From Neoarius graeffei (lineage: Eukaryota > Chordata > Actinopteri > Siluriformes > Ariidae): a stretch of DNA of 64,000 bases. This document shows positions 15,064-60,814 of the stretch, piece after piece. The stretch's first letter is position 1. The number at the start of each line of letters is the position of its first letter. The position numbers were made by a program, and so were the translations under genes. The notes beneath the pieces were generated by a model. That model made no database searches. It had not been told where the DNA came from and worked only from the letters and a program-made list of their open reading frames with translations. Location: contig NC_083570.1 in the NCBI RefSeq assembly GCF_027579695.1, forward strand, positions 8,728,793 to 8,792,792. The letters run 5' to 3'.

Positions 15064-15676
15064 TTATTCTGGATCACACAATCTCACTGTAGAACCAGGA
15101 GACCAGTAGGGTCCAAACCCAGCATATAGAGGCTGAGTGAATGTGGTGTGGACTCTGTGGAGGAGCTTCATCGTGTCAGAGACGCTGTAGAAGGACAGAG
15201 TTCCTGCACTGTGATCCACATACACTCCTATTCTGGAGGCTGATGGAACTCTGAGATCAGTCTTAATGTTGTTGTGACAGAAAGAGAGAGAAGAAGAAGA
15301 AGAACACCGCAGACTCCAGGACTGATTGTTGAGTCCAAACATACACTCATTACCCCGTCCTTTCCTGCTGATGTTTTTATATGAGACTGATATGGACACA
15401 CCACCAGCACGGCTCCACTCCACCTCCCAGTAACAGCGTCCACACACACTCTCCTTACACAACACCTGACACCAGTAATCAAATCTCTCTGGATGATCAG
15501 AGTAACGCTGCTCTCTCTCACTGACTCTCACCGCTCTGTTCTTCTCAGACAGAATGAGGCGACGATGTGCCGTGTTGGGATCCAGAGTCAGATAACAGAA
15601 ATCTAAAATAAAAGAGAAAAACAAACTGAACAATGTGAACATGTTGGGTTTAATTCACATAATATATTTAAGTGAA

Positions 15677-15738
<62 letters not shown>

Positions 15739-16548
15739 GATGTACATTTCAGAAACTCTTCTCTGCTCTGTGGTTCTGGTCCTGAAATGATCTGAACTGC
15801 TGCAGCTGTGGAGAGAAAAATGGAAACATGAGTTTGTGTAAAAGATGGAAAGAGTTTAAAGTGATCCAGTCAGTTTATTCATTTTAAATCAGTGTTTTAG
15901 TTCAAAGTGTCGGGTGAATAAAGTGTCTGCAGAAAAGAAAGCAGGAGCATCGCTAAGAAATAACACATCACTGTGTTTCTCCAGCAGGAACAGCTCCTCT
16001 TACCATGTGGAGGGATTTTGTTGAATTCCTCCTCACAGAATTCCTCGAGTCTCTTTTTCAGATCTGAGAGAGAATTCCTCACTCCATCAAATGAGAGATG
16101 TTGATGGACAGTGACGCTGGATGTCTGAAAATTTGGTCTGCAAAATGGAGGAGAGCGACGTCCAGAAGCTAAAATCTACAGAAAGCAAATGAAATGTAAA
16201 ACCCACTTGTGATGTCAGACAGGGACATTTATTGTTCCCTTAATGAGAGGTGTTTTAGAGAGTGTGTGAGGAACAGCTGGCTCTGTAGATCAGACAGTGA
16301 GTGTTACCTGGAGGAAATGGATGTGATCGTGTGTGTGTGAAAGCTGCTCCAGCTCAGTGACTCTCCTCTGAAGATCAGCAATCTCCTGCTCCAGTTGCTC
16401 CAGGAGTCGTTCAGCTCGACTCAGTTCAGCCTTCTCCTGATCTCTGATCAGCTCCGTCACCTCCCAGCGCTTTTTCTCCATGGAGCTGATCAGCTCAGTA
16501 AAGATCCTCTCACTGTCCTCCACTGCTGTCTGTGCACTGAGCTGTTAG

Positions 16549-16580
<32 letters not shown>

Positions 16581-16887
16581 AGATTTAAAGCTCATCTATC
16601 ATTCCCTCTCTTACTGGGACTGTAAATGACTCGTTGTCCATGTTGTGTGTGTTTCTAGGAGCAGCTCTGTCTCTGCTCACTGCTCACCTTTATAGTGTTC
16701 ACAGCCTGTTTCAGCTCCTGCACCTTCTTCTGCTTCTCCTGGATTCTCTGCTGGGATTTCATCTGCTCCTCCTTTAACTCACTCTGAGGACAAATAAAAT
16801 ACATTCAGCTTTTTATACAGTACGAGCGAACTGGTTCCATATTAATGTCAGTTCAAAGTACATTCGTGCTTCACTCTGAAGGTTATG

Positions 16888-16956
<69 letters not shown>

Positions 16957-19900
16957 GGAGAGAGAGAGAGAAATGTTCACTAACTGATCTGGGCTGGGTT
17001 TCCTGAAAGCCTCTTAAGGCCAAGAGAGTTTTAAATGACCTCTTAAGATCCATCATCAAGCTAATGTGGTTTTCCCGAACAACATCGTAGCACAAGTCGT
17101 CCTTTAGTTTGCTCGGAATTTACGAGAGACCAGGAGCACTCGTTCATAACAAAGAGCGACTCGCTCGCTGCCGAATCCACAGAATGCGCATGCGGCTCTG
17201 ATGGACTCTCACAGTCAGCGGGGGAAACTGGTGTTGAATCTGCTGATGGTTTTCAATTAGTTTTCTTGTACATTGCAAGTACATCGAGTTAATTATCAGA
17301 GGTGGACAGTAACGAAATACATTTACTTGAGTTCTGTACTTCAAGCATATACACAGAGCCATGGCCTCACTTTCGTTTATAAATGCCTTGAGACCTCAAG
17401 AATGGCACAGGAATAGTTTTAAGCATCAACAATAAATCTAATATTGTAATTTTTACGATTAAAGTGATTTATATAGGTAGCTTTCTGAGTGAATGACCTT
17501 GAAGTCCGTAACGTCACAGCAGGAATTCTATCGGTCTCATTGCCATTTCCGCTATTCTAAAACATAGAGCTGACTGCAACTCCGATCCTCCATTTTGAGC
17601 TAATTTATCACCATCCCACATAAATGTGTTTTTGGCCGGTGCAGCAACACGACAGAAGGTGGATTTACGTTGCATTCATGGCCCAAGAATGTTCAAACTG
17701 CAAAGATTTGGACGCATTTTGCGAGAAGTTCACAGGCACATTGGGCGCCTATGAAGTGGTCTCTCCTCTGCTCTGCACATTTTACTGAAGACTCGTACGA
17801 AACCTCTGATTGGAGGAGCGTTGGCTATAAGTCCGTATTGAAAGAGGGTGCAGTATCAACGATTAAAGAAAAGGAAAACTACAAGAAAAGGAAAGTATTT
17901 ATGGTTGGAATTTATCTTTGGAACACCACCAGTGAAGTGTAATGCAGCGTTAGTACTGTGTTCTGATCTTTTCGACCACAGTGACTTTTCAAACTTTGGT
18001 GCCTTCAGTAGTGGTTTTGCTTCAAGGTTGTTTTTAATACCTGGATCTGTACCATCAAGACGATCGACCAGCAGCTCACAAGCTGTAAGTAAAACATAAA
18101 CTTTTTGTTCGAAGGTTTTTGTTACAAAATAGCATGTTCATATTTTCCACATTAGCATGAATGACATGGTCACAAGCTAGGCTATTACACTCATAGGCTA
18201 TCTATGACCACACTAGCTCGCTAGCTTCTACCCAGAGACATAACTTGTTTAATCTACAGTCTTTTATCCTAAGATAAGCATTAAACCATGAATTCTAATG
18301 AAAGCAACCATATCTTATGTAGTGTAGCATAGTCTAATAGTGCACAGACATTGTTCTAGTCTAAACAGAGGAAACCAAGAACGGCTGTATCTCCGAAGAC
18401 ATTATGTGCAACAGTTTCCTGAGTTTTAGCTTTCAAGTTGACTGTGAACAACTGAGGCTAGAAAAACCGTAGACCCTCGACAATTCCCATATGAAAAGGA
18501 TATAGTAAAATCCTAAACAACTTTTACATGTTTTATATGGACAGAACGTATATGAATTTACCACTGTCTTAAAAGAAAATCCTTGTATGCCATGTATGAT
18601 TTACTCCTGAAAGTGGCCCCTTTTGGTGTTTCCTCATACATAGTTATTTGCTGAAACGAGTGTAAATTAAGTAAAAATTTTGTATTGCATTAACAGATAA
18701 CGTGTATGGCAAATTACTTTCTTTTCATATAATGTTTATAGGTCTTTTAGTGTCAAATGTATGTCTTTTATATTAGAAGTCATAGAAATATACAGGTTGT
18801 TGTCTGAATTGTGAATGCATCATAAAGGTATAATATGTTGGCTTTCTATGTTTTTTATATGTTAACCTACTATTATTAGGTAAAACTAGTATAATTAAAG
18901 CACAAATTGTGCATGGCATTAACAGAAAATGTGTATGACAAAATATTTTCTTTATATGCTTCATATAATGTTTATAGTTCTTAATTCTATTTTTTAGATT
19001 CAAATATATATGTCTTTTATATTAAAATTAATACAAATAAATATGTTTTGGTTTGAATTGTAGATGTATCATAAAGGTGTTATATATTGGCTTTCTAACT
19101 TTTTTATATGTCAACTTTCTATTAATATAAAAAAAACCCTGATTATTTATAAAACTTTTATAGGTTAGTCTAGGTTTTTTATATGAAAATCAATTTCCCT
19201 CAATGTAAGTAAAACACACTTTTTTGCAATGAATTGTTGAAGGTTTATCTATGTTTTTTATATTTCAACCAAATATTGTTAATGTAAGAAAAACACAGAA
19301 TTTTTCCATGAAATAACCAGTTTATTCAACAGAACAATATATAAAAAAGAAAAAGAGCAGACTTGGGTTGGATTACGGTAATAATGAACAAAATAAAAAA
19401 TAAATGCTTAGAAAAACCCTTTAAACATAAAAAATATACATAAACATAAAAAATATCCAAAATTCTGCCATACTAAGTAACATAAATCATGCCCTCCCTC
19501 CACATTTAAAGTGTAAGTTCACTATTTTTTACATAAAGCCCTGTTTTTAGGTAGTCTGGGATGAAATAAGGTGGTTCTGAACAAAATTTGAACATTTGCT
19601 GCTGAGCCGAGCCCTTACATCGATTCCAATGGGCACTCGAACAATCACTCCTAAAATGGCATTAAACTTTCGTTCACAAAGACATGAAACTTACCTTTGT
19701 GGTCAGTGGTGGACAGCCATAAAATGACTCAAAAATCACTGCAAAATATAATTTCTAATAGTGTTTGTCAGACATATTCTTCTGTTTAATAGTAGACATC
19801 CGGCCAGTACACAGAAACCTAAACAGAAGAATATGTCTGGCAAATACTGATATAAATCATATTAATAAAAACTCATTGCTGTAAATGATGAAATTAATGA

Positions 19901-20111
19901 CTTGTTAATTGTGTAATTGAGTTGTAATTGAGATGAAACAGTAGAACATGCATTAAGGGAAAATGTGCATAAAGTTTCACATCACTTCAATAAAGTGACA
20001 TCACCTCACTTGTTTTTTTTTTTTGGAAAACCAAAAATGTGTATGGCGGCTTTCTTTAAGTTGGTGGTATATATCCACCTATGCAAGCTCACGCTTAACT
20101 TACTCCTAGTT

Positions 20112-20142
<31 letters not shown>

Positions 20143-23491: not shown

Positions 23492-23543
<52 letters not shown>

Positions 23544-24836
23544 TTTGAGAGAGAGAGAGAGAGAGAGAGACAGAGGTTTTGATCTGTGTGTAGTGTGTAC
23601 CTAAGGAGATTGTATTGACCTCCTTATATATAAGATTGAATATAGATATTAAACCTCCCTAAGTACACACTACACACAGATCAAAACCTCTCTCTCTCTC
23701 TCTCTCTCTCTGTGCACTGATAAGGGAGAACATGGCCCACTCTGCACTGTGGAGAACAGCTGAAATAATCCTGACTGCATGATCGGGGGGTAACAGTGAA
23801 ATGAGCGAGCACAGGGAACACATTTACCTCATTATTGAGGTTACTATTATTTGCTCATTCTTTCATGTGAACATTTGTTTATTTAATTAAAAACACACTT
23901 GAAATAAAAAAATGGCAAAAATGTAAAATAGTTTCATTAAATAATTACCACATTATATATGTAATGCTTCCAGATGATACTATATATTATATTATTTTAA
24001 ACACATTAGATTTTAGTTAAAAACAAGTGCCATGCGACCTTATCGACTGGATTTAGCAACTACTAATGCCTTCTGCAACGGCAGTACGATTGCTTTTAGC
24101 AGCTACTAATGCCAATATTGGGGACGCAAACTGCAAAGACGCTCTTCATCCTGTTGCTCTTTAGACTCCTTCTTATGAGTGAGTTCGGGAAAACCACATA
24201 CAGAGACAACGTTCGTTCCTTAAGAGAGTCTCTCAACTCTCTCTTTAGGTCTAAAGGGCAACGTTATCAGGAAACCCACCCCTAACCAGATTATGACCAT
24301 CACTGAAGATAAATTTAACACTCTGTTCACCAGAACACAGACAATTTTAATCAGCTTTTACAGAATCCTTCTGATTGAGACACACATTGAAATTAAAGTT
24401 CAAATCATATCACTGACTAAAGCACCTGTTTCTAGATGGGAAACTATAATTAAGATGATTTAATTCTGGAAAGATTTCTAGTTCTCACCTGTTTCTCAGC
24501 TCTTTCTGCTGCGACTGTGATGGTATCATGACCTTTGTGATGAGCCATCGTACACAAATCACAGATGCAGGTTTGATCAGTACGACAGTAGATCTTCAGC
24601 ATTTCACCATGTTCAGAGCAGATCTTGTCTTGGAGTTTTGCTGAGACTTCAATTAATGTGTGTTTTTTCAAAGCAGGAACTTCAAGATGAGGTTTCAGAT
24701 GAGTTTCACAATAAGAAGCCAAACACATCAGACAGGACTTGACGGCTTTGTGTTTTCTCCCGGTGCAGATCTTACACTCCACATCTCCAGGTCCAGCATA
24801 CTGGTCCTGAGCTTCTGACATACTTGCCTCAGCCAT
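15064..24836 (-). CDS. RING-less finTRIM-like protein: B-boxes, coiled coil, PRY-SPRY
   Basis: Six coding exons, all with GT/AG ends: 24836-24489, 16783-16688, 16541-16308, 16175-16004, 15805-15746 and 15602-15064. Phases fit throughout and give 482 aa. The start is the family MAEAS methionine (24834-24836). Residues 21-50 form B-box 1 (C21, C24, C35, C38, C43) and 73-103 B-box 2 (C73, H76, C84, C92, C95, H103). Exons 2-3 (about 117-226) are a heptad-rich coiled coil, followed by linkers. The last exon is PRY-SPRY with YLTLDPNTA, CYWEVEW and IGVYVDHSAGTLSFYS. TRIM proteins are usually RING-type E3 ubiquitin ligases; fish finTRIMs are expanded and often virus-responsive. Here residue 12 (AQDQ) runs straight into YAGPGDVEC, so the RING is absent and no ligase activity is expected. 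It may bind ligands or act as a dimerising decoy (inference). The exon 5 donor (GTACAT) is weak. Intron 1 is 7.7 kb and full of nested transposons, so expression is unproven. Confidence 0.87.
15681..15737. repeat. (TG)n microsatellite in TRIM intron
   Basis: A nearly pure TG run lies between the SPRY exon and the preceding 60-nt exon. Confidence 0.95.
16551..16580. repeat. (CA)n microsatellite beside the coiled-coil exon
   Basis: On the gene strand this is a (TG)n tract just upstream of the 234-nt coiled-coil exon. The same tract occupies the same place in the plus-strand paralogue (54980-55020), so it predates the duplication. Confidence 0.9.
16890..16970. repeat. (TG)n(AG)n microsatellite
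   Basis: A compound TG then AG run in the large TRIM intron. No coding meaning; antisense ORFs here are low-complexity artefacts. Confidence 0.95.
17616..17942 (+). pseudogene. THAP-domain exon or fragment
   Basis: The plus-strand frame reads a THAP-type C2CH module: CVFGRC (C-x4-C) at 17625-17642, the tryptophan in KIWTHF, then LLCSAHF (C-x2-H) and the closing LKEGAVSTI, which resembles the AVPTIF box ending THAP domains. A basic run (KEKENYKKRK) follows, then a stop at 17940-17942. There is no convincing start methionine and no downstream transposase core. THAP domains bind DNA and occur in P-type transposases and host proteins; its place inside a TSD-flanked element favours a transposase remnant. 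Confidence 0.7.
18664..19140. repeat. Diverged tandem repeat, about 230-bp period
   Basis: Two units start near 18689 and 18919 (TTAACAGATAACGTGTATGG versus a close variant). Both continue through GTTTATAG, a TCTTTTATATTA motif, CATAAAGGT and GGCTTTCTA. Shorter degenerate echoes follow to about 19290. Located inside the THAP element. Confidence 0.7.
20113..20138. repeat. (CA)n microsatellite
   Basis: A pure CA run inside the THAP element. Confidence 0.95.
20291..20456. repeat. Tandem duplication, 83-bp period
   Basis: CAAAGTTTTATATGTTTCAT starts at 20291 and again at 20374; the two units differ at only a few positions. Located near the right side of the THAP element. Confidence 0.9.
21698..22057 (-). 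pseudogene. hAT protein N-terminal fragment
   Basis: The minus-strand frame (KNGQTSIEWLCEEKIKKEKD, later VLDRFFIKTS and STDPALWGEHV) resembles the low-complexity N-terminal region before the zinc finger of ZMYM/DUF4371-type hAT transposases. The assignment rests on its place inside a TSD-defined hAT and on the DPALWGE motif. The zinc finger and catalytic parts are missing. Confidence 0.5.
22181..23284. mobile_element. hAT-like MITE nested in a hAT, 1104 bp, TSD GTGTTCAT
   Basis: Left end CAGTTGTGCAGTGG and right end (complement) CAGGGGTGTAGTGG, each followed by a GGGGGTACGC motif, are inverted repeats. The exact 8-bp duplication GTGTTCAT flanks it at 22173-22180 and 23285-23292. No transposase is visible inside. 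Confidence 0.93.
23492..23570. repeat. (TG)n(AG)n microsatellite
   Basis: A TG run to about 23540, then an AG run to about 23570 that joins the left arm of an inverted repeat. Confidence 0.95.
23572..23691. repeat. Perfect 29-bp inverted repeat with (GA)/(TC) extensions
   Basis: AGAGGTTTTGATCTGTGTGT at the start of 23572-23600 is exactly complementary to 23663-23691, with a 62-bp loop. GA repeats outside the left arm and TC repeats outside the right arm lengthen the potential stem by about 20 bp. Confidence 0.9.
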
Positions 24837-25900: not shown

Positions 25901-25904
25901 TTTT

Positions 25905-30036: not shown

Positions 30037-30175
30037 ATCACAGAATTCCTTGAGGCTCTTTTTCAGATCTGAAAGAGAATTCCTCACTCCATCAAATGAA
30101 AATCTGGTCTGTATAATGGAGGAGACTGAAGTCCAGAAGCTAAAACCTACAGAAAGCAAATGAAATTCAATGCAC
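30037..30175 (-). pseudogene. Relic of a TRIM linker exon
   Basis: The minus strand reads FDGVRNSLSDLKKSLKEFCD, nearly the same as the 172-nt linker exon of the TRIM gene at 16004-16175. The adjoining intron matches too (GAAAGCAAATGAAAT, CTTGTGATGTCAGACA). About 35 bp in the middle is deleted, the 3' end lacks the splice donor, and no other exons are nearby. It is a remnant of another duplicated TRIM gene. Confidence 0.8.
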
Positions 30176-30219
30176 ACTTGTGATGTCAGACAATCTGAGG
30201 ACACAATAATTTTATCTAG

Positions 30220-35160: not shown

Positions 35161-36015
35161 AATACCAAAGATTCAAAGATTCTTTATTGTCAATTCACTA
35201 TATATCCAAGACATATAGAAGAATCGAAATTCTGTTTCTCTCTCACCTTACTTGTAATGGAGAAGGTGCTAGAAGAGCAGCTTATGAGGTGTATATGACA
35301 GTTGTGCAAATGAGCAATAGCAGCAGATACAGCAGTAATGCTAATGTTTGTGGTGTGATGTGCAAATGGATGAGTAATGCTCATGTTTGTGGTGTGATCT
35401 GCAAATGGATGAGGTAGTTTTCTTTTGCAAATGAATGATTTACAGACCAGGGGTAGGGGGTAGGTAGTGCACAGAGGTCAGCATCCTGACAGCCTGGTGG
35501 ATGAAGCTGTTTAGCAGTCTTGTGGAGCAGGCCTGGAGGCTCCGGTACCTTTTCCCTGAGGGCAGGAGGCTGAAGAGTGAGTCTGAAGGGTGGGGGGTGT
35601 CACCAGTGATGCTGATGGCTCTGTGGGTGAGACAGGAGTGATAGATGTCCGTAAGGGAGGGCTGAGGGGTACCGATAATTTTGCTGGCCGTGTTCACTAT
35701 GTGTTGCAGAGTCTTCTGGCAGGAGGCACTGCAGCCTCCGTACCACGCAGTGATGCAGCCAGTGAGGACACTCTCGATGGTGCCCCTGGAGAATGAACAA
35801 ATGATGGGGGGTGGGACTCGTGTACTCCTCAGTTTGCAGAGGACGTAGAGGCGAGTTTGAGCCTTCTTGGCCAGCGATGCGATGTTGTTGGACCAGGAGG
35901 GGTCCTCAGCGATGTGCACCCCTAGGAATTTGGTGCTACTCACCCTCTTCACTGCAGCACCATCAATGGTTAGAAGGGGATGCTGTGAGTGGCCTCTCCT
36001 GACTTACTTACTTAA

Positions 36016-36971
36016 GGCCCCGGTCACACCGCCTGAACTTTGCTGGAGCGTTCCTTGAACGGTAGGGAGGGGGGGGCCGAATTTTGACAACGCTCGTCAC
36101 CGCGCACAAAATGGGAAAAAAATCGAAAACACAGGTGTTGGCTTAGCGGTGCACCGCTGAAGCCGGCGTTGCTTTAGCATTGGTTTAGCGGTAGCGAGCG
36201 GTAGCGAGCGTTGGTTTAGCGGTGACGCGAGCGTTGGTATAGCGGCGTTCTGCGCATGCGGGCTTTGGCTTGGCGGGGGTATAAAGTTGGTTTAGCAACA
36301 ATCATAGCAAGTCTCTCAGCATCCATGGTGATACAGTTTTACTGTAACTTTGAGCAAATTCGATATAGATGAGGTCTGAACTCAATGGCAGCTCAATTCC
36401 AAATGAGCTCCTGGTCCATTTCTCCCCGTATTTATAGCCAAATTCTGGTCCTGCTCTGACACCTCTATACCAACGCCAAACCAAAGTTCATCGCTGCCAT
36501 GGATAGCTGCTTCAACGCCCGACACCGTTCCAGCAACCCCGTGTCCGCTTGTAAAACGCTTACAACCGCTCCACCGAAGTTTGTGCAACGTTTAATCGCC
36601 GCCCGGGCAACGCTGGCGAAGCAGCGGTGGTCCAGCGTTCAAGATTTCTGCGTTGGCCTAGCGGACCCAAGCGTCCACGAACTTGCATCTAGCGGTGCCA
36701 AACTTTGACTGGGCGTTGGTGGAGCGGGGGTGAACTTTGCAGGGGCGGAAAATTGCCCCCTCCTCACCGCTCGCAATATTTTGTGTAGCTCAAAACTTTC
36801 GGAGCGGTAGGAGGGCCCCTCGAGAAACCTTAGCGGTGGCCGAGCATATACGGCGTTGCTTTAATGGGGGCCGACTTTTGTTAAACGGTGGTGAACGGTT
36901 ACGAGCGGTGATGAATTTTTTTCACTGCTCCAGGAACGCTCCAGCAAAGTTCGGGCGGTGTGACCGGGGCC
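36016..36971. mobile_element. MITE rich in AGCGGT motifs, 956 bp, TSD TAA
   Basis: Left end GGCCCCGGTCACACCGCC and right end (complement) GGCCCCGGTCACACCGCC are identical, and the similarity continues through TGAACTTTGCTGGAGCGTTC. TAA flanks both sides (36013-36015, 36972-36974), as in Harbinger-type elements. The interior holds many AGCGGT/GAGCG variants on both strands. ORFs inside are not genes. Confidence 0.93.
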
Positions 36972-36974
36972 TAA

Positions 36975-38245: not shown

Positions 38246-38303
38246 TGTCTGAGTTTTTGTATTAGCTGCTGGGGAATGATTGTGTTGAATGCCGAACTGT
38301 AAT

Positions 38304-39123
38304 GAGCAATTCCAGCGTTATGGACGTGACACTTGAACTCAAAATGGCAACAAATGACCCAGTGCATGTTTTATTGTCTCCCAGTATTTAAACAGGTGTT
38401 GCATATTTTAAGGCTGTACCATACTGGAGAAGTGATAGAACAAGAACAATTCCCATAGTACATCTAGGGCATGCCAGAAAATGCCAATAAAAGATGCGTT
38501 ATGGATGTGACAGAAAAAGTATCACTTTTCTTGGGTGACTGTACATTTTTATCAAACTCTGTGAAATTGTAAACATAATGTTGAAATGGAGATATCCATT
38601 TGATAGAGGGGTCCAAGGTGAATATTAAAAAATCTTTGTTTAAAATATTTTGTATTTCATGCAGAGTTTCGGAAGGAAAAGTCAGCGTTATGGATGTGAC
38701 GAAATTCCGTTATGGATGTGACGCGTCTGAAATAGACATGGCATATGTTTAGAAAATCAGCAATTTAACCAGTATAACCCTTTGAAAAACTCTCTAAATA
38801 TCAGCTAAAACTATCAAAGTTCTTAAATAATATTTAGGATGGCTATTGTTTTTGCTGTTTTGTGGATTTTAGCATACATTTCTGTGGCTTGTGGCAATAA
38901 TATAGAATTGTACATGATCAAAGTTGATTTTAGCTTGGGTTTTACATTATAAGAAAGAAAGACTGACATATTAAGACAAAGGGAACAATTCTTGTGACAA
39001 ATTGGTTCAACTTATTCACATCTGTAAAATACAGGCCTAGGTGATATCTCTGGGAGTGGTTTTGATGTATTACATGTTGCTTTATTCTTGCATGGTGAGG
39101 TTGACATTTACATGGAATTGCCC
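38304..39123. mobile_element. DNA transposon, 820 bp, TSD TAAT, with repeated internal motif
   Basis: Ends GAGCAATTCCA and (complement) GGGCAATTCCA; TAAT on both sides (38300-38303, 39124-39127). Excision restores the LINE reading LFLDYSSAFNTI, which confirms the boundaries. CGTTATGGA(T/C)GTGAC occurs four times in the same orientation (38316, 38497, 38686, 38708). No ORF of note. I cannot name its superfamily. Confidence 0.88.
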
Positions 39124-43108: not shown

Positions 43109-43928
43109 GTGAATGGTTGTCTGTGTCTATGTGTCAGCCCTGTGATGACCTGGCGACTTGTCCAGGGTGTACCCCGCCTTTCGCCCGTAGTCAGCTGGGA
43201 TAGGCTCCAGCTTGCCTGTGACCCTGTAGGCTAGAGATAATGAGATGAGATAATGAGATGAGATAATGAGATGAGATGAGATGAGATGTGATGTTCAGGA
43301 TCTCAATCACATTGTAATATTTGAATAAAAATCCCAAACTCACAGATGAACCTGGATTTATAAGGTTCTATCTGCGGGCCAATCATCATCCAGGCTGAAT
43401 ATGGGATGAACACGACATCAGCAGCCTGAACCAATCATGTACTGCATGTTCTAATGGAGTTTAAATATTGTTCAATATTTTACAATCAAATCTCAGGGTT
43501 TAGAAACAACTTCAGATTTGAAAAAGTGAATGTGGATTTTACATCTTAGAATACAAGCAGAAAAATCAAATTCATTCCAAAAGTGATGTTTTATTTTTAT
43601 ATAGTGTGACCTGAACAGGTTTAAAATGTTGTTCTGTTCTGGCTTTATTACTGTTTATTAGTTATTTAATGAGACGCTGCTTAATATGAAACAAACAGAA
43701 CTTTATAATGCGAAGGTCATGAGATCATTTTCTTTTTAAATTTGACGAGTTTCTTGTCTGACAGTTAATTTTTAACATTTCCTTTTTAATTATTTTAAAT
43801 TATTCATCTGTTTTAATTTAAATATTAAAATGAGTGTTTTTGTGCAGCTGGATTGTGTTCTAGTGAAACAGACGAGTGAGCAACAACGTGGCAACGTGCA
43901 GGAATTTTACAGAAAACACTACACACTT

Positions 43929-43968
43929 TTATTCTGGATCACACAATCTCACTGTAGAACCAGGAGAC
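43929..43968 (-). pseudogene. Last codons of a deleted TRIM SPRY exon
   Basis: Identical to 15064-15103, the final 13 codons (ending TVRLCDPE and stop) of the minus-strand TRIM gene. The match ends abruptly at 43968. The rest of this TRIM copy is gone, replaced by the THAP-containing region. Confidence 0.85.
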
Positions 43969-47397: not shown

Positions 47398-50300
47398 CCG
47401 CACTGCAGAGTGTGTTCCCTCCATCAGAGCTGGCCGCCTTCATGTCTCTGCTCAGGCGTGATAAAGAACAACAGCTGAACGAGCTCACCAAGATCGTCAC
47501 CGGGATTCGCCTCTTCAACAAGGACAGCGGGAAAGGAGGAGAGAGCATCGAGGACCGTGAGTGCATCTCACCTCGCGTTCTAATTAACGCTCGCCATCGT
47601 GATTCATTTTATAACAGCAGCTCTGACAGTCATGCAGATTTACATTAACATGCTCGTTTTGGTACGTTAACATTCTGTTAAATGACGGGATGCTCTACGT
47701 AAACCGAATTGAAAATCACTGAACGGTTCTCGAAGGTAAGGAGACGTTTATTCAACTTTCACTCATCTTCAGGACAGAAGAGTTTACGATGATGTTTTTT
47801 GACGTTCATTAACCGCAAAGGCAGGAATGTGAGTGAGAACGGGAACTCACTTGTTTCCCACAAGTTCAAAAATGTAAATAGAAATGGATAGAAAGTATGG
47901 TGAATTGTTCTGTAAGACATTTATTGATGTAATCGTCAATAAATTGCTGTGGTGTAAGACAGAAGGGAACCGTCAGGGCCTTCTCTGCGTTCAGAGAAGC
48001 CCAAACGTATCAGCATTTCAAATGTTATGTTTAATTTCTTTCATAATTTCATTATATTATTCTCTCTTAATTCTAATTTGGCCTCATTTTCTATCACATT
48101 TGCTTCAGAAGTGAAAGGGTTACTGTCCTGAAAACATTAAAATCGAGTTCTCCAATGAGATTGTTTTGCTTGTTGTGTCTAGGCTGAGAACAGTTCAGAG
48201 CTGCTCACTCATTGGTTAGGACTTCATTGCCGGGACAGAAGGCCATGGCAGTGTATGTTTATGTAGGAAGTGACAGATGAATTAATTAACCAATCAGATT
48301 TTGATTTATAGCTGGAGGGACTAAAAATGTATCACCCTCAGCCTTCTCGAAGGCCAACGCGAGCTTAACTGTGAGTCGGCGCAGCAGTGAAGTCACCTTC
48401 CAGCCAGTGTAGCATTCATCAGTAGTGTTAGCGAATGCTAATAAAGCAGTCAAGCTGGTGCTATCTATCGAGAGCTACAGGCTAACAACCGAGAAGCTAA
48501 GATTTCTGTCTCCAGACTCTTCTTCCACGCTGCACGCTTGCGACAGTATTTTTCACTCAGACTTAAGTGTAATTTACTTTGTTACTTTTAAAATCAACAT
48601 CGGCAGCTACACACAACGGAGCGGCCTGGCAGCCTGCCACTAATCCCTTACAAATCCTTTGCCCTGTTGCTTTTTTGGTGTGTTTTGGTTAAGTTTTGGC
48701 TGAGCTCAAGTCCCATGTCTAATAGTAATAGTTCGCCGCAGGTCTAAGAGGAACTCGGTCAGGTTTATGCATTTTTGTGACACACTGTACATTTATAATT
48801 AGGATTTAACTTAATTATTGTAACAAATGTTCAGAAAACCACACATATTGACAGAATACAGGCTTGTAAGAAACTGTACATGTTTATAGAGCAAGGTTTT
48901 TTTGAAGTAATCGTGGTAATATCTTCTGTGTTACATTGTTGATGTGCAATCCTGGTCATCGTGGCTCTCTCGTGAAGTGCTGGCCGTCCTGAACGAGGCT
49001 CTTCCTGCTGCCAGCACAGATATAGAGCGTGAACTGGAAGGGACGCAACGTTTGGCTTGGCGCTACACCACTCTGCTGGAGAGATGCTCTGAATCCGACA
49101 CTGACGCCGAGCTAAACAGGGACCTGCTCACACAGGCCCTGTACAATGTACGCCAACATGAAGCCTTCCTCAAAATCATACTGGTGCGTTACAGAGACAT
49201 CTAAATGTTCAAGCCAACGATTAGAATAAAAGTTATTGGAAAACATTTAAATTTCTGTTACTATTTTATTCTTATTATGGCTAACTTTCGCTAATAATCA
49301 TTAAGAGTAAAAGTCACGTAACGTAATAAAACGTAGTTCGTTTGTCTCCGCCAGGCAGATGTGATCACATGTGCAAAGCAAGTGGAGGCTCTTCACACTG
49401 ACCTCATGTCGAGGATGAAGGTGCTGAAGGCCACAGTTCATGCCAAAACTGCAGTACCAACCTCCCAAGTGTTCGTAAGTGTTCCTTTGCTCTGTCAAAA
49501 GCTCTTTGCTAGCATCATTTTCAGTCTGATCATTTTAAATCCCTCCCATTAGCCTCATTTCACAGCGTTGGCCAGGCTGTGGGCAGGGCTTCAGGATGAG
49601 ATGGTCTTGTTGAACATGCTCCGGAGCATGGCGCTCAGCCTGAGGCCGTTCCTCTCGGCTCAGTCGCAACTTCTCGAGAACGTTCAGTTGGATCAGATGC
49701 TCCGCGGTGAAACCGTCAAATCTGACGCAGAGAGAGCTGCTGAGAGCTCAGGTACGTTCTGACATCACGAGCTTTTTATTCATTACAGAACAGCATCTTG
49801 TTAGTGGGCAGCTTGTTATGTCCAAGAAGTGTAGCATAAACTCCTCTGGCCTGAAGACATCGGAAAAAACTTGAGCATTACAGCTTTACGTCTTTGAGTG
49901 AGCGCATTTCATTTCTACATTATCACTCATCATGTGTAGTGTAGCACTCATTTTCTCTTTTTCAGAGGAGCGGCTTGATCCAGAGGAGATGAAATCGTCC
50001 GAGTGGATTCTGCCCGAGACCACGGCGAACTTTGAGCAGCTCTTCCTGCAGTACAGGGGTGTGTGTGGATACACTCTTGTCGAGAAGAACGGCCTCTTGC
50101 TCCCAGGTTCATAGTGAAGCTTTTCTTTCTCCAGTTTTACACTCTGCTTTTTTTAGAGTCCGAATATTAAAGAGCGTTCGTACGACTAGACAGTGTTTAG
50201 ACCAAGACGTATTCAGCTCCCCAAAAGAAACAAATTTGTGATGTAAAGTGACACTACAGCATTAAAACACTGAAAGTGAAACATCTCTGGCTGAAGCTCC

Positions 50301-52702
50301 TCGTTCTTCAGTCATTAATTCGACCTACTTTGTTTGTTTCCATATTTGCTTTTGGTGTTCGACGAAATCTTTTTCAGGGAAGGCCTTCCTTATTTCAGCA
50401 AGACCGCTTTCTGCACATATTAAAACTGCATGGCTGTGTAGGAAAAGAGTCCAGGTGCTAAACTGGCCTGCTGCAGTCCAGATCTGTCTCCCATGTAAAA
50501 CAGTTGGCGCATTATGAAGCGCAAAATACGACAAAGGAGACCCCGAACTCTTGAGCAACTGAAATTGTACATCAGGCAAGAATGGGACAACGTTTCTCTT
50601 TCAAAACTACAGCAGTTGGTCTCCTCAGTTCCCAAACGTTGATAGAGTTTCGTTAAAAGTAGAGGTGATACACAGTGGTAAACACGCCCTTGCCCCAACT
50701 TTTTTTTAAATGTGTTGCTGACATCAAATTCGAAATGAGCATAGATTTTTCAAAAAACAATAAAATTTCTCAGTTTCAGCATTTGATATGTTGTCTTTGT
50801 ACTATTTTCAATGAAATACACGGTTTCCATGATTTCCAAATCGTCATATTTTGTTTTTATTTATGTTTTACACAGTGTCCCAACTTTTTTGGAATTAGGG
50901 TTGTAATTAAACTGACTTTTAAATATAATTAATAAAGGACACGCTTTAAAGGAACAGTCCACCGTATTTCCATAATGAAATATGCTCTTATCTGAATTGA
51001 GACGAGTTGCTCCGTACCTATCCGAGCTTTGCGCGACCTCCCAGGCAGTCAGACACGCTGTCACTCCTGTTAGCAATGTAGCTAGGCTCAGTATGGCCAA
51101 CGGTATTTTTTGGGGCTGTAGTTAGATGCGACCAAACTGTTCCGCGTTTTTCCTGTTTACATAGGTTTATATGACCAGTGATATGAAACAAGTTCAGTTA
51201 CACAAATTGAAACGTAGCGATTTTCTATGCTATGGAAAGTCCGCACTATAATGACAGGCGTACTAACACCTTCTGCGCGCTTTGGCAGCGCATTGATATC
51301 TGAGCTCCGTATCAATGCGCTGCCGAAGCGCGCAGAAGGTGTTAGTACGCCTGTCATTATAGTGCGGACTTTCCATAGCATAGAAAATCGCTACGTTTCA
51401 ATTTGTGTAACTGAACTTGTTTCATATCACTGGTCATATAAACCTATGTAAACAGGAAAAACGCGGAAGAGTTTGGTCGCATCTAACTACAGCCCCAAAA
51501 AATACCATTGGCCATGCTGAGCCTAGCTACATTGCTAACAGGAGTGACCGCGTCTGACTGCGTCTGACTGACTGGGAGGTCGCGCAAAGCTCGGATAGGT
51601 ACGGAGCAGCTCGTCTCAATTCAGATAAGAGCATATTTCATTATGGAAATACGGTGGACTGTTCCTTTAAGGCAAGACGTCCATATTTCTGAAGCTCAGT
51701 CTGCTGCTGTTCCTTTCCAAAGGCAATCCGAACATCGGCATCCTGAAGCACAGGGAGAAATATTACAGCTTCAGCTCCAAGCAGGCTGCGTATCAGTTCG
51801 CCTCAAACGCAGACAAGTACATCGAACTGATTGCGGAAAGAGCGAAGAGATCTCCGGAACTGATCCAGCTGCTCGAGCTTCATCAGCAGTTTGCCAGCGT
51901 CACTCCGTACTCTCAGGTATCATGGACGTGTGACTTACTTGCATCTTCTCCTTCACATACTTGACCTACTCGCTGATCTCCACCACAAACTCCATTCCCC
52001 ATGAACACTCTTAGCCTACAAATATGGCTGATCCAGCACCTACATACTGATCCAACACAATCAGTCGCAGCGTATGAAGACTCCACACACACTCTGCACA
52101 TTAAAACTGCTCAACTGCAATCCCATCCTTGTCCATCTCATCTGTGAGCCTGAGAGTGACAGGAAAATAATCAACAACAATGCGGTGAGCCAGTGCAAAG
52201 CAGCGTTTCTTAGAAAGTTTGTCTTCACAGATGCAGTCAGGTGAGAAATTGTTGGTGAAACCCATCAGCAAAAGTGAAAGCAGCACACAGACGGACACAC
52301 ACCTGCTGGAGAGCAGCATCGTCAGATCTTACGAGTGGAACGAGTGGGAGCTGAGACGGAAAGCCATCAAACTGGTAAGCAGCTCCACCTGAAATACACT
52401 GGCATGATTAGATTACGCTCAAGCTGTCCGAAAAGCCCTGAAATAAGTTTAACACGTTATTTTGTTGAATGCACTCCAAGGCGAACCTGCGCCATAAGGT
52501 AACCCACTCGACGCAGACTGACCTGAGCCACATGAGGAGACACAACACCACGCAGACGTTCCTTCCGAAAGAAGCCGCCTGCCAGACGAAGAGAGACGGA
52601 CAGAGTAACGTACCGAGACCTCAAGTCTACCTGGCTGGGCTGAGAGGAGGACCAACCACTCCCATGACCAAACTCGATTTAACTCCAGATGTGCATGAAT
52701 AG
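47398..52702 (+). CDS. cfap206: CFAP206, C-terminal two thirds (eight exons)
   Basis: CFAP206 is an axonemal protein of motile cilia, linked to radial spoke 2 and associated structures. Eight exons with GT/AG ends and matching phases: 47398-47556, 48978-49183, 49355-49474, 49553-49751, 49966-50106, 51723-51916, 52231-52374 and 52481-52702, about 460 residues ending in a stop. Diagnostic stretches, in order: ALQSVFPPSELAAF, KIVTGIRLFNKDSGKGGE, LYNVRQHEAFLKIIL, VPTSQVF, LPETTANFEQLFLQYRGVCG, GILKHREKYYSFSSKQAAYQ, SYEWNEWELRRKAIKLANLR, VTHSTQTDLSH and VPRPQVYLAGLRGG. The vertebrate protein is about 620 aa; the first 180 or so residues are not found upstream, where TRIM and transposon remnants lie. 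No stops or frameshifts were seen, so it may be a functional gene with distant 5' exons or a 5'-truncated duplicate. Intron 5 contains a mariner fragment and a 717-bp palindrome. Confidence 0.92.
47690..47975. repeat. Dispersed repeat in cfap206 intron 1, copy 1
   Basis: Shares order and wording with 52925-53215: TTCAGGACAGA(A/G)GAGTTTA, then AAATGGATA, then AAATTGCTGTGGT. Family unknown; probably a MITE. Confidence 0.5.
47976..48977. other. Rest of cfap206 intron 1
   Basis: At 47976 CAGGGCCTTCTCTGC looks like a hAT-type terminus, but I found no matching opposite end. The remainder is non-coding, with no supported features. Confidence 0.35.
50360..50913 (+). mobile_element. Mariner-like fragment in cfap206 intron 5
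   Basis: Degraded plus-strand transposase C-terminus (around RSVSHVKQLAHYEAQNTTKE and ARMGQRFSFKTTAVGLLSS) followed by the terminus CCAACTTTTTTGGAATTAGG before TA. Same family as 13.7 kb. The 5' part is missing. Confidence 0.8.
50950..51666. repeat. 717-bp near-perfect palindrome (TTAA-flanked hairpin element)
   Basis: Left arm 50950-51298 and right arm 51310-51666 are reverse complements with few mismatches; the centre is an 11-bp loop at 51299-51309. Outer ends are AGGAACAGTCCACCGTATTT and its complement, flanked by TTAA at 50946-50949 and 51667-51670. Because of the symmetry both strands give almost the same short ORF (51157-51381 and 51227-51451), which is not a gene. It sits in a cfap206 intron, 56 bp before exon 6. 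Confidence 0.97.
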
Positions 52703-52924
52703 TTAATTTGTTTGTTAGTTAGACCTAGTATTGAATGTTTGTATTGAATTGTTGCATTCTGGTTTCTGATTGGCCAGAAAATACTGATTAATTTTCTCTG
52801 AAAGTTTTGCAGGCGTATATTAATGCACTCGTTCGAATTTATGGTTTTCATCGTACCAGCTCGTTCCCAGGGATTTCTACGATGGACGCTAGACATAAAC
52901 CGATTTTAAAAATCATTTAAATGG

Positions 52925-53215: not shown

Positions 53216-53647
53216 CTACTTTGGTACCGAATGTCAGTCAAAGCAGCGCGCACACAATTATGAAAATGATCTTATTGGCTCTAATAATATTAAATATTAT
53301 TATACATACAGGAGACTTTTTCAATGGAATAAAAATATGTGTTCTATTCCCTTCTAGTGGGTTTCATTCATTCGGTTTGGTAGCATGCAATATTGTTAGC
53401 GTATCGCTTATCATACGTGTATTACGTCACTCTACCCACTGGAGAATGAGCGTTGAATATGATTTACGATATTGAATGGTTGTCAAGGCAACATGACGTC
53501 ACACATCGGAGACATAAAACTTCCACGTGAGCGAGCAAGCAACTGTGACAATTTGTGAACAAACATAGCTTCTACGATTGCTTCATTAAATACAGAAGAT
53601 TTTGAGAGAATTTTGAAAGATAAAGACGCGTTGAACACCCGGAAGGA

Positions 53648-53815
53648 ATGTATAATAATAATAATAATAATGATGATAATAATAATAATAATAATAATAT
53701 TGACTGGCTTTTTTTGTGGTCTATCAGATATATTCCATTCAGCTACTCGTCTTTGACTCATTCATTATCATGCTAGCTGAATGGAATATATCTGATATAC
53801 CACTCAACGCCAGAC
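53648..53815. repeat. (AAT)n tract and 19-bp inverted repeat
   Basis: An AAT microsatellite at 53648-53700. Beyond it AGATATATTCCATTCAGCT at about 53727-53745 is exactly complementary to AGCTGAATGGAATATATCT at about 53776-53794, a stem with a 30-bp loop extended by weaker pairing (GTGGTCTATC with GATATACCAC). Confidence 0.8.
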
Positions 53816-54977
53816 AATATTATTTAATTATCCTGAGGAATAACACAGCAGATTGTGAGGTTACACAAAAATAATCCACGCCAGCATGGATTTACCACTT
53901 TACCATCTTTGATTTATTAAAAAGTAGCAGGTGTATAAAATGAGATTGAAGCTTCTGCACACACACACACACTGTCACACAGCCACACCCCTTTGACAGT
54001 CTGCACTCCTACTCTTTTTAAAGCTCCACCCACTCTGGCTCTGTGATATCGTATCTCTCAGTGCAGCAGGACGCTCATTTCAAAGCACACAATTCCGATC
54101 TCTACTGTATGTGTCGCTCTCTGGAAAAATGGCTGAGGCCAGTATTTCAGTAGCTCAGGACCAGTTCATGTGTCCAGTGTGTCTGGATCTCCTGAAGGAT
54201 CCGGTGACTATCTCCTGTGGTCACAGTTTCTGTAAGGCGTGTATTAATGGCTGTTGGGATCAGGAGGATCAGAAGGGCGTCTACAGCTGTCCTCAGTGCA
54301 GAGACACTTTCACTACAAGGCCTGTTCTACGCAGAAACAACATGCTGGATGAAGTGGTGGAGAAACTGAAGAAGAAGACTGAAGTCTCATCCTGTTTTTG
54401 TGAACACAACACCGAGTCAGGTGCATCAGACAAAGAACAGGTGAGAAGGAGAAATGGTTTCAGACTGAATCCTTCAACATTTTGTTTCTAATCCTGCTTT
54501 ACTCAGGTCATATGGTGTAAAAATGTCATGACTTCTATTGATTATAAATAATAAATATGTTCCATGTATCCTGTAGATGTGAACAGTTTTACAAGCACAT
54601 ACTGAGTACCTTTGACCTCACTCAGAGAGAGAGCCAGGATATGGATGATCTTTAACTTGAATTGCAGTTAATAATCTCCCACCTTTGACCTGTCTTTGAG
54701 TGAACACTTTACAGTTAGTAAAGTTAGTAATTAACTCAGGATGTAATATCATTTCATTCATTCTTGTCAGAGTGAGTTAAAGTTGAAGGAGGAGCAGATG
54801 AAATCCCAGCAGAGAATCCAGGAGAAGCAGAAGAAGGTGCAGGAGCTGAAACAGGCTGTGAACACTATAAAGGTGAGCAGTGAGCAGAGACAGAGCTGCT
54901 CCTAGAAACACACACAACATGGACAATGAGTCATTTACAGTCCCAGTAAGAGAGGGAATGATAAATTAGCTTTAAAT

Positions 54978-54979
<2 letters not shown>

Positions 54980-55020
<41 letters not shown>
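54980..55020. repeat. (GT)n microsatellite beside the coiled-coil exon
   Basis: Orthologous in position to 16551-16580 in the minus-strand TRIM paralogue. Confidence 0.95.
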
Positions 55021-55021
<1 letters not shown>

Positions 55022-55762
55022 TGAACAGCTCAGTGCACAGACAGCAGTGGAGGACAGTGAGAGGATCTTTACTGAGCTGATCAGCTCCATGGAGAAAAAG
55101 TGCTGGGAGGTGACGGAGCTGATCAGAGATCAGGAGAAGGCTGAACTGAGTCGAGCTGAACGACTCCTGGAGCAACTGGAGCAGGAGATTGCTGATCTTC
55201 AGAGGAGAGTCACTGAGCTGGAGCAGCTTTCACACACACACGATCACATCCATTTCCTCCAGGTAACACTCATTGTCTGATATCACTTGCACTGTGGTCT
55301 GAGAATATTCGTCCATCTCGTACACCGCTCCGTTTCCAGTCTCTCAGTGTCTCTTCTGGACGTGGTGACTCATTCATCATTACTGTCCATCAACATGTTT
55401 CATTTGATGGAGTGAGGAATTATCTCTCAGAGATGAAAAAGCAATTCAACAAAATCCCTTCATATGGTGAGAGGAAGTAAAATGTTATAAATCCACGCAT
55501 ATACATAAAAAAAGATTTATTGTACTTATCTGAACTTAACATTGTCGCAGCTACCATCTGAAAGATATTGTACTTATACAGTTCATCAGTCATATTAAGA
55601 TCATTTATTTTGCCAATATTCATAAATTCAAACATCGTGTTTCCTAAAATCACACTCTGATCATTGTATATTATTCCACCTCCATTTTCTCTCCGTCACA
55701 GCAGTTTGGATGAATTTACCTTCACAGCTGAAGACTCGAGAAGATTTTCTACAATGTATGTA

Positions 55763-55768
<6 letters not shown>

Positions 55769-55823
<55 letters not shown>
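55769..55823. repeat. (CT)n(CA)n microsatellite
   Basis: Compound run just after the 54-nt TRIM exon. Confidence 0.95.
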
Positions 55824-55825
<2 letters not shown>

Positions 55826-56017
55826 GCTGCCAGAGCATTAAGAACATATGTTGTTTTTGGAGACGTTTCCTTCCACAATAAAGAGAAGTGAAGAATGGAG
55901 GTGTCATGTTGAGTGTCGCTGACAGCACAGCACTGGTGAAGTTCGATATGTTTGATCCATGAATGTATATGAAGGTTAATAACATTCTAGTCATTTTCTT
56001 TCCTGAAGTTTATACAA

Positions 56018-58915
56018 GAATCAAGTCAAGTTTATTTGTATTGCACTTTTAACAACAGACATTGCCACAAAGCAGCTTTACAGAAAATTAAAGACTTTGA
56101 CCATGAGCTAATCCATCCATCCATTATCTGTAGCCGCTTATCCTGTGCAGGGTCGTGGGCAAGCTGGGGCCTGGCTGGGTACACCCTGGACAATTCGCCA
56201 GATCATTGCAGGGCTAACACATAGAGACAAACAACCATTCACACTCACACCTATGGTCAATTTAGAGCCACCAATTAGCCTAACCTGCATGGAGCACCAA
56301 GAGAACATGCAAGCTCCACACATAAAGGCCCCCATCGGCCACTGGGCTTGAACCCAGAACCTTCTTACTGTGAGGCGACAGTGCTGTACCACTGTGCCAC
56401 CACATGAGCTAATTTTATCCCTAATTTATCCCCAATGAGCAAGCCTATGGCGACGTTTGCAAGGAAAAACTCCCTCAGGCGACACGAGGAAGAAACCTTT
56501 TGAGGAACCAGACTCAAAAGGGAACCCATCCTTATTTGGGTGATAACTGATAGCATGATTTATAAATAACTCTCTTCCATAACTGTGTCCTACAGAGCCA
56601 CAAATTATAACTGTGTAACCAGGAACTTCATTATAGTTTTAACACGGTCTGTTTTGTTGAAGTTATAAACTGTTCATTGATGGAAACTTGAGTGCAAAAC
56701 TGTTCAAGACAACTGCAGTCCTAAAGTTAGCAAGTCATCTGTAGTTCTCAGACATAAATATATTACTGTAAGTGTCCAGAGCGTCTTCTAAGTATGACTT
56801 TCGACTGTCCATATGGGACCATCCTCCACAGGAGTGATGTGATGAGACTCCAGCCAGAAGTAGGGCATCAGGATGGATCAGGCAGGTCTGAGGAGCAGAA
56901 GAGGTCAGCATCACTGGTTTCTCAGGATTGACATGTAACTCAACAGAGACAGACAGAAGGAAGATATGAGAGAGAGAGAGAGAACAAAGGTTGTGAGGTA
57001 TGCCCAGTGTCACCTTATGAATAAGAACAGTATATATTTTGCGCTGAGTGCAAGCAGGGACTCTGGCAACACTAACTATGACAGCATATTTAAAAGGGAG
57101 AGCCAGAAGGTAACACAGGCATGAGGGAGCCCCGGGACATAAAGCAGCAGCCACTCCACCATCAACAAACCTGAGTGAGTGAGTGAGTGAGAGTGGGGGA
57201 CTGACAACATCCATATATCCCAGTTTACCAAAACACTCTATGCCTGAGGACTCACCAGAGTTACTCCTTTACCGAATAAAAAACTATCTTGACTGAAAGA
57301 TATATTTTCAGCCTAGACTTAAACACTGAGACTGTGTCTGAGTCCTGAACACTACTTGGAAGGTTGTTCTATAACTGTGGGGCTTTGTAAGAAAAGGCTC
57401 TGCCCCCTGATGTTGCCTTCACTATATGAGGTACCAACAAATAACCTGCACCTTTTGATCTAAGTAGGCATGGCGGGTCATAAAGGACCAGAAGTTCGTT
57501 CAGGTACTGTGGCGCAAGACCATTCAGTGCTTTAAAGGTCAATAGTAGGATTGTATAATCAATACGAAATTTGATTGGGAGCCAGTGCAGTGTGGATAAG
57601 ACAGGGGTTATGTGGTCATATCTTCTAGTTCTAGTAAGGACCGTTGTTGTTGCATTTTGAACTAACTGGAGCTTGTTTATGCACTTATTGGAACATCCAG
57701 ACAGTAAGGCATTACAGTAATCCAACCTGGAGGTAAGAAAAGCATGAACTAGTTTTTCTGCATCTTAGTGACATTAAATTTCTTATCTTGGCAATATTTC
57801 TGAGATGAAAGAAACCTATCTGGGTAATGTTATCATTATGAGTTTCAAATGAAAGACTGGAGTCGATGATCACACTGAGGTCTTTTACTGCTGCACATGA
57901 AGAAAAAAGCAGTGGACCTAAGACAGAACCTTGTGGAACACCAAACTTTACCTCAGCATGCATAGAAAAATCACCATATACATCAAGAAACTGATAGTGA
58001 CCAGTTAAATAAGAGCTGAGTCAGGAGAGGGCCGTTCTCTTGACTCTCACAACATTTTCTAGTCTATCCAGGAAAATGGAATGATCAATAGTGTCAGAGT
58101 CTGCACTAAGGTCAAGCAACACAAGCAGCGAGACACAGTCCAGATCAGATGCCAACAACAGGTCATTTACTACTTTAACCAGTGCTGTCTCTGTGCTATG
58201 ATGAGGTCTAAATCCTGACTGATACATTTCATGGTTGTTATTCCAATGTAAATATGAGCATAACTGCTGTGCCACAGCTTTTTCTAGAATCTTGGAGATA
58301 AAGGGGAGGTTTGATAATGGCCTTTCATTGGGCTGACAGGGGTCAAGGTCAGGTTTTTTAATCAGGGGTTTGATAACTGCAAGTTTAAAGGATTTGCGTA
58401 TGTAGCCAATTCTAAGGGAAGAAATGATTATTTCTAGAAGAGCTTAAATTGCTTCTGGTATTATCTGTTTGAAGAGACATGTAGGTAAGGGATTAGTACA
58501 CAAGAAGAAAATTTTGATGTGGAAATTAATGAAATTAATTTGATTTCTCGAAGAGGAGTAAAACATTCTAATTGCTGAGCTTATACAGTTATATTGTTAA
58601 CGACTGGGTTATTTAAATTGTCTGGGCTTAAATGAGTAGTTTGAATTTTTTTGTTGGATATTTTCAATTTTGTGATTGAAAAAAATTATGAAGTTGTTGC
58701 TGCTGCATATTGCAGGTGCATGTGTGTCTGTAGTGGTCTTTTTCTTAGTTAATTTTGCTACAGTATTAAAAAGGAATCTAGGATTATTTTTGTTATCTTT
58801 GATTAGGGTGGAGAGATACATTGATCTTGCAGCACTCGGAGCTTTTCTATACTTCAGGAAGCTCTCCTTCCATGCTAATTTGAATACGACCAATTCTACA
58901 AGGAATATCATCTAA
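56018..58915 (-). mobile_element. L2-clade LINE relic in the last TRIM intron
   Basis: Minus-strand pieces in order: 58911-58609 (WKESFLKYRKAPSAARSMYL), 58275-58021 (QSGFRPHHSTETALVKVVND, VLLDLSADSDTIDH), 57963-57712 (FGVPQGSVLGPLLFS joined directly to VKDLSVIIDSSLSFE) and 57725-57369 (LDYCNALL-like, TRTRRYDHITPVLSTLHWLP). A 3' UTR follows to about 56018. The stretch holding the YADD catalytic box is deleted. Frames are broken several times. A SINE is inserted in the 3' UTR. Confidence 0.85.
56113..56402 (-). mobile_element. Mermaid-like SINE in the LINE 3' UTR, 11-bp TSD
   Basis: Reverse-oriented, internally shortened copy beginning CCATCCATCCATTATCTGTA. Target duplication CATGAGCTAAT at 56102-56112 and 56403-56413. 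The related LINE end at 61240 is the uninterrupted target. Confidence 0.93.
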
Positions 58916-60814
58916 TTGTGTAATCTCCTGCTCTCTCTCTCTCTCTGATATAATGTGTAAGAAACTGAGGGTGTGAGAGAGTGTCAATATGAGGCACTAA
59001 TGAATTACTGGTTTAATTATGACTCATTGTACCCCAGTGTTTAATACACGATAAACTTTATTGCGCAACATCTCTTTTCTTTCAGATTTCTGTTATCTGA
59101 CTCTGGATCCCAACACGGCACATGGTTCCCTCCGTCTGTGTGAGAAGGACAGAGCGGTGAGACGCAGTTATAAAGAGAAGCTGTTCCCTTATCACCCTGA
59201 GAGGTTTACCTCCATCGCTCAGGTGTTGTGTAAGGAGAGTGTGTGTGGACGCAGTTACTGGGAGGTGGAAAGGAGCAGTGAGGGATGTGTGTACATCTCA
59301 GTCTCATATAAAGGGACCAATAAAAAAAGAGCAGCCCAGACGGACCATATTTGGATACAACGATCAGTCGTGGAGTCTGGTGTGTTCTCGGACTCCTCTT
59401 CATTTCTATCACAACAACATTAAGACCGAGTTCGGAGTTCCGTCACCTTCCAGAATAGGAGTGTATGTGGATCACAGTGCAGGAACTCTGTCCTTCTACA
59501 GCGTCTGTGACAGGATGAAGCTCCTCCACAGAGTCCACACCACATTCACTCAGCCTCTATACGCTGGGTTTACTCTGTGGGCTCCTGAATCAGTTGTCAG
59601 GTTTTCTGATCCACAATAATGGATCATTAATGTATAGTATCCTGTACTGAGTGCTGCGGAGTTCTGGTCTGAAGGTGTTGATTAATTCCCTATAACAGCA
59701 GCTCTGACAGTAGTGCAGCTGCAAATCATTAGTGTTTCTATAGTAACAGCTCGTGTGTGTTTCTCACAAGCATTTCACCTAAAATACTCTCTTACCGCCA
59801 CTCGACATGAACATGGTGGTCTCTGAAAGACTATACAGGCATCTGCCCAGGAGGCTGTGCCAGTTTTAGGGCTTGAGCAGTTTTTCGTCTCTTGTGTCTC
59901 TCATCCTTTGATTTCCGTCGATCGGATTCAAAGGTCTCAACTCCATTGCAGACCACACGCCTCCAGAGCAGTCTATCAGTTGGTGCTGTAGCCAATCAAT
60001 AATCCCACACTCTTTAAAAGTTCTCTTTAGGGCATCCTTGTATCTCTTCTTAGGAGCACCAATGCTTCTCATTCCTGTGGATCGCTGACTGAAGAAAAGC
60101 TGTTTTGGAAGTTGTTTTGCATCCATTTTAACAACATGTCCATACCACCTCAGCCTATTTTGCTGAAGCATAGCCTCGATGCTTGTTAAGGAGGTTCTAT
60201 CAAGAATTGCAGCATTGGTAACACGATCATACCATTGGGCGTTCATGATGGATCGTACCGTGGGCATCTTCAGTGAAATTTCTCAAGTTGTTTTACTTGA
60301 TATTGGTACGTAGTCCATGTTTTTGACCCATACAGGAGCATTGGTATTATAGTGGCATTATAGACTCTTATTTTAGTTTTCAAGTCAAGTTCGTGATGAT
60401 CAAAATCATGCTTACGTAGCTTGCCAAAAGCTGTTGCTCCAGCACTGATGTTGTTATTAATTTCATGGTCAAGGGAAATATCACCTGACACATAGCTGAT
60501 GAGATATTTAAAGTGTGGGACTACCTTAAGAACAGTTCCATCCACAGAAATTTCAGGTTGGGTGGTGATTGGGATTGAGGTGTCAGAGGCAGGTCGACAC
60601 ACAACCTCTGTTTTAGTGCAGTTCAGTGATAGCCTGAGTCTTTTGTAGGCTTCTGCAAAGGCATCTGTGATTCTCTGCAAGCCAGCTTCTGAGTATGAAC
60701 AGAGCGCAGCATCATCAGCATACTGAAGTTCCACAACTGAGGCTGTAGACACCTTACTTTTAGCTTGCAAATGATGTAGGTTGTACCATTGTATTGATAA
60801 ACTATCTGTATTCC

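Follow-up and report, generated by a model that had tools for sequence, protein, structure and literature searches.

FinTRIM (ftr) genes of teleosts, a rapidly multiplying family of immune genes, are described as forming multigene clusters with a plan of six exons of 555-594, 96, 234, 154, 60 and about 545 bp, comprising a RING/B-box exon, coiled-coil exons of 96 and 234 bp, and a B30.2 exon; frameshifted and truncated members are on record, including likely pseudogenes with frameshifts (PMC2657112). Loss of individual modules has been reported as well. Several fish TRIMs lost the RING in ways that deletion of a whole exon cannot give, and losses of B-box and of coiled coil, found mainly in class IV, are said to be fixed less easily (PMC3137616); carp TRIM14 and TRIM16 are listed among TRIMs without a RING (PMC10048487). 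Here we describe two TRIM-type genes in a 64,000-nucleotide stretch of the Neoarius graeffei genome (Siluriformes, Ariidae; RefSeq assembly GCF_027579695.1, contig NC_083570.1, positions 8,728,793 to 8,792,792), hereafter the window, from whose first letter all positions below are counted. The gene on the minus strand (24836-15064) has B-boxes and no RING; the gene on the plus strand (54129-59619) has a RING and no recognizable B-box, and its SPRY reading frame is broken. With a probability of roughly 75%, we read this as a finTRIM birth-and-death locus in which the RING-less minus gene is probably functional and the plus copy is either decaying or mis-assembled.

Coiled coil, PRY-SPRY and exon plan mark both genes as TRIM derivatives, and exon plan and domains together place them as putative finTRIM-type (class IV, RBCC-B30.2) teleost paralogs. 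Each gene model, derived from the sequence, has six exons, and all ten introns of the two models are GT-AG and in phase. Exon sizes are 348, 96, 234, 172, 60 and 539 bp in the minus gene and 312, 102, 234, 127, 54 and 534 bp in the plus gene. Relative to the published finTRIM plan, exons 2, 3 and 5 of the minus gene are equal in length, as is exon 3 of the plus gene, whose exons 2 and 5 are each off by 6 bp; exon 6 is close in both copies. The departures, also in both copies, are in exon 4, which is 172 or 127 bp rather than 154 bp, and in the first exon, which is 348 or 312 bp rather than 555-594 bp and lacks one zinc module in each copy. That the genes are paralogs sharing one exon plan, with both losses inside coding exon 1, had been proposed in an initial annotation of the locus, and this holds, as do the coordinates given there.

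Coding exon 1 of the minus gene (24489-24836, with donor gtgaga) encodes a 12-residue leader abutting a region of two B-boxes. Here, MAEASMSEAQDQ is joined without a gap to YAGPGDVECKIC, and a pattern scan of the exon found no C3HC4 arrangement, in agreement with the initial annotation, in which residue 12 was seen to run straight into the B-box region. B-box 2 scores 40.8 bits against a Pfam cutoff of 24.1; an over-strict custom pattern did not pick it up, and a looser pattern did, as did Pfam. B-box 1 is recognized by its zinc-ligand pattern and by alignment to TRIM25, its Pfam score of 20.6 bits lying under the cutoff of 27. Exons 2 (16688-16783) and 3 (16308-16541) encode coiled coil, the latter with a match to Pfam TRIM_CC; exon 4 (16004-16175) and exon 5 (15746-15805) follow, and exon 6 (15064-15602) encodes a PRY-SPRY (B30.2) region whose frame is open to the stop, for a total of 482 open codons. 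Matches to TRIM_CC (residues 130-275, reaching into exon 4), PRY and SPRY all exceed Pfam cutoffs. Lacking a RING while having two B-boxes, coil and PRY-SPRY, the minus gene has the layout of TRIM16 and other RING-less TRIMs, a match of architecture rather than of orthology. It differs from TRIM16, where the absence of the RING is ancient, in that its own loss looks local: a RING-bearing paralog with the same leader lies about 29 kb away. We regard the minus copy as probably a functional RING-less gene. Its long first intron contains, on the plus strand, a THAP-domain reading frame (17604-17942; Pfam THAP, 43 bits) that is possibly derived from a transposon.

The plus-strand gene shows the reverse arrangement. 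Its coding exon 1 (54129-54440) encodes the leader and a complete C3HC4 RING (residues 15-57) in which none of the eight ligands is missing, as had been claimed for it. The same initial annotation held that B-box 1 and nearly all of B-box 2 were gone; the loss itself stands, while the suggestion that something of B-box 2 survives finds no support, as the last 22 residues of the exon resemble the B-box region of the minus gene no better than chance (of 1000 shuffles each, 101 scored as high at the nucleotide level and 511 at the protein level). All that is recognizable as B-box is therefore missing. Coiled coil is encoded by exon 2 (54771-54872), which has two additional codons, and exon 3 (55029-55262), which differs from the minus copy in one residue. 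Exon 4 (55340-55466) aligns to its minus counterpart with gaps of 8 and 8 codons, and exon 5 (55702-55755) is diverged yet in phase. Pfam RING models, TRIM_CC and PRY all match the protein where expected.

Exon 6 of the plus gene (59086-59619) has an intact PRY and then loses the SPRY frame, a break not mentioned in the initial annotation. The frame changes at a run of seven A residues at 59322-59328; from 59329 the sequence is open in another frame as far as 59619, and the conceptual product ends after 388 amino acids. The separated SPRY tail still matches the SPRY model, at 28.7 bits, barely over the cutoff of 26.3. The plus gene is thus damaged at its 3' end as well as in exon 1. The premature stop falls in the last exon, where nonsense-mediated decay is not expected. 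Zebrafish parallels are btr31 (PMC3137616) and the short ftr39 allele, the latter encoding the RING alone (PMC2657112); the plus gene differs from both in that it retains the coil, its exon-1 loss is in-frame, and its B30.2 region is interrupted.

Neither an unannotated RING exon for the minus gene nor a B-box exon for the plus gene was found in the window by tblastn with seven exon queries, which returned the two genes, two isolated remnants, and weak matches taken as chance (for the minus exon 4 query, among the matches listed). The RING query had no other credible match in the window: next best was the shared leader with chance matches (E of 0.001), followed by matches with E of 0.27 and worse. 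One remnant, at 30038-30192 on the minus strand, resembles minus-type exon 4 (74% identical to 16033-16221); the other, at 43633-43968, also on the minus strand, consists of the last 12 SPRY codons and 3' flank (96.7% identical to 14767-15103). These two orphan fragments point to additional related copies that may have come and gone. Searches outside the window found no relatives of the B-box exon or RING piece in a viral contig collection, nor of the coil or SPRY in a genome contig collection, neither of which holds fish genomes. The 2 kb upstream of both genes lack an interferon-type GAAANNGAAA or TTTCNNTTTC core. We give no weight to two TTCNNNGAA sites in the 2 kb upstream of the plus gene, given 15 occurrences across the window.

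Comparison with proteins of solved structure bears on how the two first exons relate to each other. Among such relatives (the best 60 of 100 and the best 60 of 102), TRIM25 is the best for both halves, namely the plus RING and the minus B-box/coil/SPRY, followed by TRIM16 for the SPRY. Plus residues 10-80 align to TRIM25 residues 8-76, and the minus protein aligns from its residue 18 to TRIM25 from residue 104. Taken together, the two copies thus appear to resemble the layout of TRIM25, in which, unlike either copy here, one protein carries both RING and B-boxes. The leader (36 bp), the RING part (about 222 bp, by our cut) and the B-box part of the minus gene (312 bp) sum to about 570 bp, within the published range of 555-594 bp. 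This length supports a first exon with RING and B-boxes that was once common to both copies, followed by two separate in-frame losses. The shared ancestral layout of exon 1, as initially proposed, is a fair inference, made by arithmetic rather than from an ortholog. Reciprocal exchange as a joint origin of both losses is not favored, since the retained parts do not abut when measured against TRIM25 (76 versus 104).

Similarity between the two genes is uneven along their length. A coil block comprising exon 2, intron 2 and exon 3 (54767-55281 on the plus strand) is 95% identical to 16787-16289, with a sharp shift in identity on both sides. Identity within the block is 94 of 96 nucleotides in exon 2, 138 of 146 in intron 2 and 233 of 234 in exon 3, and 108 of 110 aligned residues are equal in the protein. 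Outside it, identity falls to 430 of 533 in the SPRY exon (about 80%), 100 of 121 in exon 4, and 44 of 72 in intron 3. Synonymous differences, in rounded counts, number about 1 in 66 sites for exons 2-3 versus about 24 in 114 for the SPRY exon (Fisher p = 9e-5), and intron 2 differs at 8 of 146 positions versus 28 of 72 for intron 3 (p = 2e-9). Because purifying selection on the coil cannot explain similarity at silent sites and in an intron, the block was likely homogenized recently by gene conversion, or by block shuffling. Zebrafish NLR-B30.2 genes, which also carry the B30.2 domain, are a published case of gene conversion acting domain by domain (PMC4852459). The homogenized block is not the whole of the coil region, however, because TRIM_CC extends into exon 4; in that part the two copies agree at only 25 of 41 aligned residues, with gaps. 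Ka/Ks between the copies is about 1.0 in the PRY and first half of the SPRY, and about 0.65 in the second half of the SPRY.

The history we favor begins with a first coding exon that normally encodes a RING and two B-boxes. Two separate internal deletions, both in-frame, would then have occurred in it, one stripping the minus copy of its RING and the other the plus copy of its B-boxes, and recent gene conversion would have homogenized the coil block between them. The minus product would be expected to dimerize through its coil and bind ligands through PRY-SPRY, without RING-dependent ligase activity; its most likely role would be that of a RING-less partner or brake, resembling TRIM16, for full-length finTRIMs presumed to lie elsewhere in the genome. 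TRIM16 itself pairs with other TRIMs and, though RING-less, is reported to have ligase activity (PMC3357404). As assembled, the plus gene would yield a RING, a coil, a PRY and roughly half of the SPRY. Unless an assembly error accounts for the break at the A-run, this copy is most likely in decay, the best reading given that the end of the binding domain is lost. The losses observed fit the known turnover of the finTRIM family, for which RING loss, B-box loss, frameshift alleles and likely pseudogenes have all been published.

Two considerations weigh against the birth-and-death reading. Read in its own frame, the plus SPRY tail is open for 91 codons; it has two gaps of one codon each and the Ka/Ks of about 0.65 noted above, so that the plus gene may be functional with an assembly error, or the lesion very recent. 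The openness is weak evidence of constraint, because 19.4% (0.194) of 20,000 simulated unconstrained copies, evolving by substitutions only, keep the tail open. The other consideration is that intragenic RING loss has been taken by its describers as a sign of positive selection (PMC3137616), a view that speaks against the minus loss as mere decay. A rival reading is an error of assembly or base calling that produced the SPRY break or either or both of the deletions in exon 1, the true genes being full-length. A break at a seven-A run, with a tail beyond it that stays open in another frame, fits this reading, and some apparent finTRIM defects are noted by the authors of PMC2657112 as possible assembly defects. 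Both exon-1 losses preserve the frame, however, which random mis-joins would manage one time in three for each; the window contains no N, and the flanking splice sites are intact. We consider such an artifact unlikely. That both copies are pseudogenes also seems improbable. Orphan fragments nearby, the broken plus SPRY, and the Ka/Ks of about 1.0 in the PRY and first SPRY half fit such a picture, but the minus copy stays open through 482 codons and six in-phase exons and keeps both B-box ligand patterns, and positive selection, as published for finTRIM B30.2 domains (PMC2657112), would also fit a Ka/Ks near 1 between paralogs.

The complementary losses invite a further idea, that this is a two-part TRIM: one product with only the RING and one with only the B-boxes, retained because together they make up the full RING/B-box set in a single antiparallel mixed dimer, or because they regulate each other. 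Those TRIM coils that have been studied run antiparallel and place the N-terminal RINGs at opposite ends (PMC4864278); the RING-less TRIM16 binds other TRIMs (PMC3357404), and the pseudoligase TRIM51 interacts with TRIM49, a close relative proficient as a ligase (PMC11992055). The near identity of coil exons 2-3, in a block that looks recently homogenized, is consistent with the idea, and the initial annotation's claim of compatible coils stands to the extent that mixed dimers are plausible if both products are made. Against the two-part idea, the coil part in exon 4 differs and the plus SPRY is out of frame. A matching coil, moreover, might be common to any two close finTRIM paralogs, and RING loss and B-box loss each have separate precedents (PMC3137616). 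We judge a two-part TRIM very unlikely. In its stronger form, the pair would be retained as two halves making up a single ubiquitin ligase, and gene conversion would keep the coils matched, so that they pair, while the rest diverges; this is less probable still. Functional pairing in trans as a matched pair is unsupported, and among the titles and abstract openings of the literature searched, we found no description of a split RING/B-box TRIM pair.

Between the two TRIM genes, on the plus strand at 48920-51964, are two reading frames that match the ciliary gene FAP206/CFAP206 (Pfam FAP206, 56.0 and 89.2 bits). Between these frames is a palindrome of about 730 bp (50943-51673), made of two inverted copies that are 95% identical to each other. 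Elsewhere in the window, a unit of about 189 bp is repeated three times in tandem at 9935-10496, the copies being 96-98% identical, and transposase-like and reverse-transcriptase-like frames, recognized by eye, occur at 6764-7537, 4304-6294 and 35440-38370.

With two separate in-frame losses, a homogenized coil, a frame break, and orphan fragments all within 45 kb, the locus offers a snapshot of fish TRIM arrays gaining and losing modules. As it stands, it shows ordinary turnover of the family. Should the two products nevertheless prove to pair, they would provide a natural test of the separate contributions of RING and B-box to TRIM ligase activity.
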